Made by a program: the position numbers and the translations under genes. Below, one piece after another: positions 23,236 through 25,107 of a DNA stretch of 64,000 nucleotides (its first letter is position 1; each line of letters starts with the position of its first letter). Source of the stretch: Candidatus Gastranaerophilales bacterium. GTDB taxonomy: Bacteria; Cyanobacteriota; Vampirovibrionia; Gastranaerophilales; Gastranaerophilaceae. Below the pieces are notes generated by a model that saw only the letters and a list, made by a program, of their open reading frames with translations, had not been told where the DNA came from and did no database searches. The DNA is taken from NCBI GenBank assembly GCA_947624685.1, contig CANQLJ010000001.1, positions 62,001 to 126,000 on the forward strand, written 5' to 3'.

Positions 23236-25107
23236 ATGTCAATCGATAATGACATAACAAACACAAAAGAAGATATAAAAAACAATCTTGATATATCGGA
23301 TGAAAAAAACACGGTTGAAGCAATAAGCGAAAATAAAATTGACAACACAAAACAAAAAGCAATCATAAGAGCGTTTTTAGCCAACATCGGGATTGCTTTA
23401 GTTAAATTAGTCTGTTTTATATTTTCAAAAAGTTCCGCGATGCTCGCTGAATCAATCCATAGCGGGGTCGATTCATTCAACAGCATCTGTCTTTGGGTCG
23501 GAATCAAAAGAGGGGCAAAACCTGCTGATAGTGAACACCCCTTCGGTTATGGCCTAGAAGCCAACATCTGGGCGATGTTTGCTTCAATTTTGATGCTCGT
23601 TGGTGCAACCGTTGCAATATATCACGGGTGGAACAAGTTTTTTGAACCGGATGGAATTGAAACACTATTAAAAAACTATAATTTTATCGCGCTATCTTTA
23701 ATTATCAGCATGTTTTTTGAAGGCTGGGCGGTCAATAGCGCAGTAAATGCCGTTATGGCGGAAATTTCTATTGTGGAAAAAAACCCTGTTAAAAGATTTT
23801 TAATTTCAATTAAACATATCAAAAAAATCAAATCCCCAACGACAAAATTTGTCTGGTATGAAGATACCTGTGCATTTTTTGGCGTGTTTATAGCATTATT
23901 TGCAATAAGTCTTTCTAAATTCGCAATGCCGAATAATTATGCTCATATCCCTGACGCTGTAGCATCAATTATAATCGGTATGATACTGTTAAATCTTGCG
24001 TTTTATCTGGTTAAAAATAATGTCAACAGCCTGACCGTTCAATCGGCAGAACCTCGAATTGAAGAAATAATCAGAAACGTCGCAAGTACAATCCACGGAA
24101 TTACCCATGTATTGGAATTAAAAACAATCGATCTTGGAACATCGGGGCTTGTAATTAATATGACAATTGAAGTCGACCCCGAAACGCAAATGAAAGACGC
24201 TGATGACATTGCGCAAATGTTAGAGAGAAAAATCAGGAAATACATAAAAAACGTAAACGACGTCACAATCGAGCTTCAAGCGCATGATGAGGAAGATAAT
24301 TGGGAAGAAAAATTTGAAAAATTAATTTCCGAAGGTCAAAAAATCAGCGCCATCGATGACCATGAAGCAAATATGCTCTCTAATTTCTTTTCTTTTGCAA
24401 ATACTGTCGTAAAAGAAATAATGATACCTCGAACCGAGATTATATTTGCTGAAAGCACAAATTCAATCTATGAATTGGCCGATATAATAATCAATTCCGG
24501 CCACACAAGAATCCCAATTTATGAAGACAATGTCGATAATATCTTAGGGATGATTAATGCAAAAGACGTCTTAAAAATCATCAAAAACAACAACATTGAC
24601 GATAATTTTTCGATTAAAAATCTCGTCAGAGACATTTTAATAGTCCCTGAAAACAAGTTTATAAGCGACTTATTGTCAGATTTCACTTCATCAAAAAACC
24701 AAATCGCAATGGTTATAGATGAACACGGTGGAGTCGCGGGGATTGTCACAATCGAGGATATTTTAGAAGAAATCGTAGGTGAAATCTATGATGAATTTGA
24801 CAAAGTCGAAACACCCGAAATAGTGAGACTTGACGATAATACATTAAATGTTTCGTCTAAATTAAGTATTGATGATTTTAACGAACGATTTGACCAAGAC
24901 ATCCCAAACGAAGATTTTCAAACATTGGGCGGCTATGTCTTTGGTCTTTTGGGCAGAGAACCCGAATTAAATGATGTTGTGGAAGATAAAAACATCACCT
25001 ACACAATTTTAGAGCTCGACGGGATTAAAATTACAAGAGTTAAATTGCATAAAAGTACACCTTTCATTGATAAAATCAACAAAGATAATAACAATAAGGA
25101 GAACTGA
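23236..25107 (+). CDS. cation diffusion facilitator fused to CBS pair and CorC_HlyC domain, 623 aa
   Basis: Predicted metal-ion transporter with an unusual architecture. Residues about 40-265 are a CDF membrane domain with five to six helices: metal-site pair H75/D79 in AESIHSGVDS, HPFGYG (101-106), and an E209-D210 pair in TM5 (YEDTCAFFG), as in the ZnT9-like branch rather than the usual HxxxD. A CDF cytoplasmic domain follows (about 270-350). Residues about 393-520 are two CBS motifs (MIPRTEIIF...GHTRIPIYEDNVDNILGMINAKDVL; IAMVIDEHGGVAGIVTIEDILEEIVGEI, in segments), and about 530-605 a CorC_HlyC domain. CBS-CorC normally follows a DUF21/CNNM membrane domain. One uninterrupted frame; overlaps gpsA by one base. 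Confidence 0.9.
   Translation: MSIDNDITNTKEDIKNNLDISDEKNTVEAISENKIDNTKQKAIIRAFLANIGIALVKLVCFIFSKSSAMLAESIHSGVDSFNSICLWVGIKRGAKPADSEHPFGYGLEANIWAMFASILMLVGATVAIYHGWNKFFEPDGIETLLKNYNFIALSLIISMFFEGWAVNSAVNAVMAEISIVEKNPVKRFLISIKHIKKIKSPTTKFVWYEDTCAFFGVFIALFAISLSKFAMPNNYAHIPDAVASIIIGMILLNLAFYLVKNNVNSLTVQSAEPRIEEIIRNVASTIHGITHVLELKTIDLGTSGLVINMTIEVDPETQMKDADDIAQMLERKIRKYIKNVNDVTIELQAHDEEDNWEEKFEKLISEGQKISAIDDHEANMLSNFFSFANTVVKEIMIPRTEIIFAESTNSIYELADIIINSGHTRIPIYEDNVDNILGMINAKDVLKIIKNNNIDDNFSIKNLVRDILIVPENKFISDLLSDFTSSKNQIAMVIDEHGGVAGIVTIEDILEEIVGEIYDEFDKVETPEIVRLDDNTLNVSSKLSIDDFNERFDQDIPNEDFQTLGGYVFGLLGREPELNDVVEDKNITYTILELDGIKITRVKLHKSTPFIDKINKDNNNKEN

Follow-up and report, generated by a model that had tools for sequence, protein, structure and literature searches.

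In the 64,000-nucleotide stretch of DNA analysed here (the window), a single gene encodes a complete cation diffusion facilitator (CDF), and an 11-residue segment of constant length links this to all cytoplasmic parts of a CNNM/CorB/CorC Mg2+ transporter. The fusion is no artefact: it is old and has been conserved in families across one bacterial class. On balance, we favour the reading that its product exports divalent metal as a homodimer, coupled to protons and gated by Mg-ATP, with a CDF membrane unit standing in the place of DUF21. A preliminary description had reported CDF, CBS and CorC_HlyC domains in one unbroken 623-aa frame, and Pfam, NCBIfam and full-length homologues all agree with it. 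It had also called the architecture one that is not known to be described; in line with this, no published account of CDF + CBS + CorC_HlyC was found in the open-access literature searched. The features are listed below, and the counts refer to an alignment of 91 distinct full-length fusion sequences.

23236..25107, + strand: fusion gene, ZnT9-like CDF membrane and dimer domains, then the CNNM/CorC cytoplasmic module; 623 aa (Pfam, NCBIfam, homologues)
23362..24033, + strand: CDF transmembrane domain, residues 43-266, six predicted TM helices (PF01545, 6e-31; model helices; YiiP fit)
23458..23472, + strand: TM2 metal motif H75xxxD79 (invariant, 91/91 fusions)
23851..23865, + strand: TM5 motif V206-W-Y-E209-D210, ZnT9-like VxxxD (V206 and E209 invariant; D210 in 90/91)
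24058..24273, + strand: CDF cytoplasmic dimerisation domain ZT_dimer, residues 275-346 (PF16916, 8e-9)
24271..24303, + strand: junction E346-W356, 11 residues (same length in 91/91 fusions; both end residues kept in at least 97%)
24301..24399, + strand: helices matching the MtCorB acidic helical bundle, residues 356-388 (query 357-389 aligned with MtCorB 167-199)
24409..24783, + strand: CBS pair (Bateman module), residues ~392-516, with putative Mg-ATP contact residues T424, R425, T505 and D508 (Pfam; MtCorB alignment)
24826..25053, + strand: CorC_HlyC domain, residues 531-606 (PF03471, 2e-17)

The frame starts with ATG and closes with a stop codon at 25105-25107; an in-frame TGA lies two codons 5' of the ATG, and there are no internal stops. 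Pfam returned Cation_efflux, ZT_dimer, two CBS domains (7e-15) and CorC_HlyC, all above their curated cut-offs (for ZT_dimer, 35.8 bits with a cut-off of 26.7), and NCBIfam assigned residues 40-350 to the CDF superfamily and 348-605 to CorC. Among PDB sequences, the first half matched YiiP/FieF, and the best match of the second half was E. coli CorC (residues 349-603, E 9e-44). The AlphaFold model has a mean pLDDT of 77 and shows six long helices in the CDF half; its pTM was only 0.42, thus the relative placement of the CDF and CNNM halves is not predicted by it. Taken separately, the parts gave structural matches: residues 37-349 to YiiP (Z 20.5), residues 353-516 to MtCorB (Z 19.6), the CBS pair to the Mg-ATP CBS pair of MtCorB in 7msu (Z 18.3, rmsd 1.1) and residues 527-608 to CorC_HlyC structures (2r2z, Z 15.2, rmsd 1.2).

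The CDF half bears the marks of its family, a Cation_efflux domain with six TM helices followed by ZT_dimer. All 91 fusions have H75, D79, E209 and, in TM4, the acidic E162, and 90 of them keep D210. CDFs have been grouped by their TM5 motif into Zn- and Fe/Zn-CDFs with HxxxD, Mn-CDFs with DxxxD and ZnT9-like proteins with VxxxD (Montanini et al. 2007, PMC1868760). The ZnT9-like cluster, with both bacterial and eukaryotic members, has a His in its TM2 motif as well (PMC1868760), and a 2024 paper gives the same V/IxxxD motif for ZnT9, a mitochondrial zinc transporter (PMC11335279). The fusion carries V206xxxD210 in TM5, which is neither HxxxD nor DxxxD, and HxxxD in TM2; we call it ZnT9-like on these motifs and on its grouping with stand-alone V/IxxED CDFs, human ZnT9 lying outside the sample of the CDF tree. 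Such stand-alone CDFs, with V/I-x-x-E-D, occur on plasmids of Sphingobium, Azospirillum, Arthrobacter, Persicobacter and Prevotella. In the tree, they group with the fused CDFs (100/99), apart from E. coli FieF and ZitB, and the other CDFs of the class, nearly all with HxxxD, fall outside this group. The Glu-Asp that had been noticed in TM5 in place of HxxxD is indeed present, as E209-D210. It had been taken as a hint of altered metal choice, and we rejected it as the mark of a new metal: since the stand-alone relatives that group with the fused CDFs share V/I-x-x-E-D, Glu-Asp is a signature of the clade, in accordance with the published ZnT9-like pattern (PMC1868760). When 48 genomes were searched with the CDF half, all close matches (>190 bits) were fused, and the other CDFs were distant (<50 bits).

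The cytoplasmic domain was compared with the residues that we take to form the cytoplasmic metal sites of YiiP. None of the His positions of these sites holds a strictly conserved His in the 91 fusions, and two of them are occupied by the invariant acids D323 and E346. The CDF tail may thus sense metal differently, and the usual metal switch may be changed or missing. D324 is invariant in the 91 fusions as well (D323 and D324 at window positions 24202-24207, E346 at 24271-24273), and D323 together with E346 may perhaps make up a hard-metal site.

In the CNNM half, the acidic helical bundle of archaeal CorB (MtCorB residues 166-199; PMC8242095) has its aligned counterpart in residues 357-389, and its CBS pair in residues 392-516. 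The Mg-ATP contacts of MtCorB include S234, R235, T313 and D316 (PMC8242095), and these correspond to T424, R425, T505 and D508 of the fusion. T505 and D508 are present in all 91 sequences, position 424 is T in 81 and S in 10, and position 425 is R in 87 and K in 4; the contact residues are conserved as strongly as structural ones. Several CBS positions vary. The fusion therefore shows the acidic helical bundle, the CBS pair followed by CorC_HlyC and the conserved Mg-ATP contacts of the CNNM/CorB/CorC family, and it has no DUF21 (PF01595). Since all of the former are kept, the cut lies just after DUF21, and only DUF21 is gone. CNNM/CorB transporters are activated by Mg-ATP, which closes the CBS dimer, and loss of ATP binding abolishes their Mg2+ efflux (PMC8242095; PMC10710835). 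The preliminary description had suggested gating by an adenine-nucleotide or Mg-ATP sensor. Gating of the CDF by Mg-ATP is plausible given the ATP contacts kept across the 91 fusions and the constant junction; the gating itself we infer from sequence.

CDF exporters are proton-driven homodimers, and their cytoplasmic dimer domain controls the transport state. By analogy with this family, the ZnT9-like membrane part of the fusion would export divalent metal from the cytoplasm in exchange for inflowing protons, and the cytoplasmic tail would act as the Mg-ATP-sensing module of a CNNM/CorB transporter. At high Mg-ATP, two ATPs would close the CBS dimer, and this closure would be passed on by the helices after residue 356, through the fixed 11-residue junction, to the CDF dimer domain, so that the exporting state would be favoured. 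A twofold CDF dimer would thus be stacked on a twofold CBS dimer, and the short, fixed junction would let Mg-ATP set the conformation of the CDF. As drawn here, transport, dimer coupling, the direction of gating and the metal carried (Mg2+, Zn2+ or Mn2+) are putative.

The origin of the fusion was approached through trees of both halves. In the CorC-module tree, all 45 sampled fused modules formed one clade (100/99), which grouped with the DUF21-CNNMs of the other orders of the class (93/82), and the DUF21 proteins of Gastranaerophilales, from genomes with or without the fusion, lay mostly in a separate clade (100/99). The fused CDF halves were likewise one clade (99/95), whose sister among the sampled CDFs was the stand-alone V/IxxED group (100/99). 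Both trees contain some long branches and few outgroups, and their simplest reading is a single fusion event and, from then on, mostly descent and loss: a ZnT9-like CDF would have taken the place of DUF21 in front of a CNNM cytoplasmic module once, and the product would then have been inherited and lost.

The DUF21-CNNMs of fusion-bearing genomes (loci L103-L122, L096 and L097) belong mostly to another CNNM clade than the nearest relatives of the fused module, and those at L116, L121 and L122 form a very divergent branch. At L156 (G164:C76), a 519-aa CorC-type ORF matches the protein of the window from a point upstream of the usual module start. On the Azospirillum ramasamyi plasmid NZ_CP029834.1 (L242:3905-6586), a stand-alone CDF is followed 400 bases on, on the same strand, by a 'hemolysin family protein' of CNNM type; relatives of both fusion halves are thus neighbours there, between the repA and partition genes of the plasmid. 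On two other Azospirillum plasmids, the CDF adjoins an AAA ATPase gene, with no CNNM.

One alternative assigns to the protein the task of the CNNM/CorC exporter itself, namely that the Mg-ATP-gated CDF half exports Mg2+ in place of DUF21 and the sensing of Mg-ATP serves Mg2+ homeostasis. We consider it unlikely. The host genome has one CDF, one CorC_HlyC domain and one CorA, with no DUF21 and no MgtE, and the lack of any other CNNM would be expected if the fusion had taken over; the grouping of the CorC half with the class's own CNNM lineage and the acids D323 and E346, where YiiP/FieF has His, point the same way. In a set of 149 genomes that are at least 90% complete, DUF21 was present in 90 of the 94 without the fusion versus 23 of the 55 with it, which favours replacement, yet in those 23 a DUF21 protein persists, in most cases one that belongs to another CNNM clade. 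Outside Gastranaerophilales, at the same completeness, the separation was complete: 28 genomes had DUF21 only (28/28 of those without the fusion), 11 had the fusion only, and none had both. However, on a RecA tree of 60 genomes the presence of the fusion changes about 4 times, and there are 3-4 independent contrasts, in none of which fusion and DUF21 go in the same direction; a sign test on them was not significant, and with so few contrasts significance is out of reach. Moreover, known CDFs move transition metals. ZnT9 itself is a zinc transporter (PMC11335279). The mutual exclusion outside the order is thus suggestive, and the replacement of CNNM is put forward as a hypothesis. If it were true, Mg2+ would be the main substrate of this CDF, and the cytoplasmic module of CNNM would be proved able to drive a transporter unrelated to it.

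The neighbours of the fusion vary by lineage (gpsA in the window; in others recA, an Era-type GTPase or different genes), and they show no link to metals. The adjacent gene is an Era-type GTPase, by sequence, at ten loci from other families and genera of Gastranaerophilales (L163, L165, L166, L168, L170 and L177-L181). The class's DUF21-CNNM genes lie in surroundings other than those with the Era-type gene, so synteny cannot tell whether a swap took place in situ. No metal riboswitch was found near the fusion, either in the window or at 20 related loci, and no metal gene recurred beside it among the loci compared.

Another possibility is that the protein is an ordinary Zn2+/Mn2+ CDF exporter, with no ATP-dependent gating, and that its CNNM tail merely clamps the dimer or serves as a scaffold, in a passive role. 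Since the families of both halves are symmetric dimers, the tail could simply stabilise the dimer, and several CBS positions do vary; nevertheless, a passive tail accords poorly with ATP contacts that are kept like structural residues, T505 and D508 in every one of the 91 sequences, and with a junction of invariant length. We judge this explanation improbable, and the Mg-ATP-gated exporter remains our preferred reading.

The search covered 193 relatives as well as genome contigs, and full-length, single-frame homologues were recovered from dozens of independent assemblies, at identities from 80% down to 38%. They come from several families of Gastranaerophilales and from three further families of the same class. 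For three distant members, Pfam returned the same four families, and the E346-W356 junction is constant in 91/91 despite identities down to 38%. In the host genome (2.0 Mb, 92 contigs, 99% complete), the gene is present as a single copy; the closest named relatives of this genome are Candidatus Gastranaerophilales, gut bacteria that are related to cyanobacteria but non-photosynthetic. The preliminary description had named a frameshift or assembly join of two genes as one finding that would overturn it, and such a join at 23236-25107 is practically impossible: the source is a draft assembly in 92 contigs, but the same one-frame architecture recurs in dozens of independent assemblies, the fused halves form one clade in both trees, no internal stops occur, the junction length never varies and the Pfam families are the same.

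An apparent TM5 deletion in the relative G135 was rejected, as it proved to be a run of N in the assembly. A scan of genome contigs with peptides of one fusion sequence gave full-length matches solely from the same lineage, and no single-gene fusion was seen among the matches listed from plasmid records. Two genomes of the window's genus, G007 and G019 (~91% complete), have neither the fusion nor a DUF21 protein, which may reflect a true loss or contigs absent from the assemblies.

For years it has been debated whether CNNM/CorB proteins are Mg2+ transporters in their own right or regulators of other transporters (PMC8242095). In the fusion, the CNNM cytoplasmic module has been separated from DUF21 in the course of evolution and attached to a different, well-understood exporter fold, and this natural chimera offers a direct test of whether Mg-ATP sensing is a transferable control unit for another pump. 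It also adds a nucleotide-sensing input to the CDFs, whose known control is metal binding to their own tail. Since the fusion is the only CDF and the only CorC-type protein found in the host genome, its role in the metal balance of this gut bacterium may be central.

Plug-in nucleotide-sensing domains are carried by other transporters too, among them MgtE, OpuA and CBS-fused MFS proteins (PMC10710835); these belong to families other than CDF, and the available portion of that source gives no CDF example. The CNNM/CorB/CorC proteins (MtCorB 7m1t/7m1u, TpCorC, MpfA) share with the fusion the acidic helices, the CBS pair with Mg-ATP contacts and CorC_HlyC, in the same order, but they transport through a DUF21 membrane domain, whereas the fusion has a CDF in its place. 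E. coli CorC (4hg0), which residues 349-603 match best in the PDB (35% identical in the structural match), is a soluble CBS-CorC_HlyC module without a membrane domain, while in the fusion this module is covalently joined to a CDF. YiiP/FieF has the overall CDF fold in common with the fusion (Z 20.5), which differs from it by VxxED instead of HxxxD in TM5, by metal-site His residues that are not conserved and by the extra CNNM module. The CDF half resembles the ZnT9-like CDFs, such as human SLC30A9, with six TM helices, HxxxD in TM2, VxxxD in TM5 and a cytoplasmic dimer domain, and the stand-alone bacterial relatives share even the Glu before the TM5 Asp. Those stand-alone proteins, however, end after the dimer domain, where the fusion goes on for ~270 residues that make up an intact CNNM cytoplasmic module.
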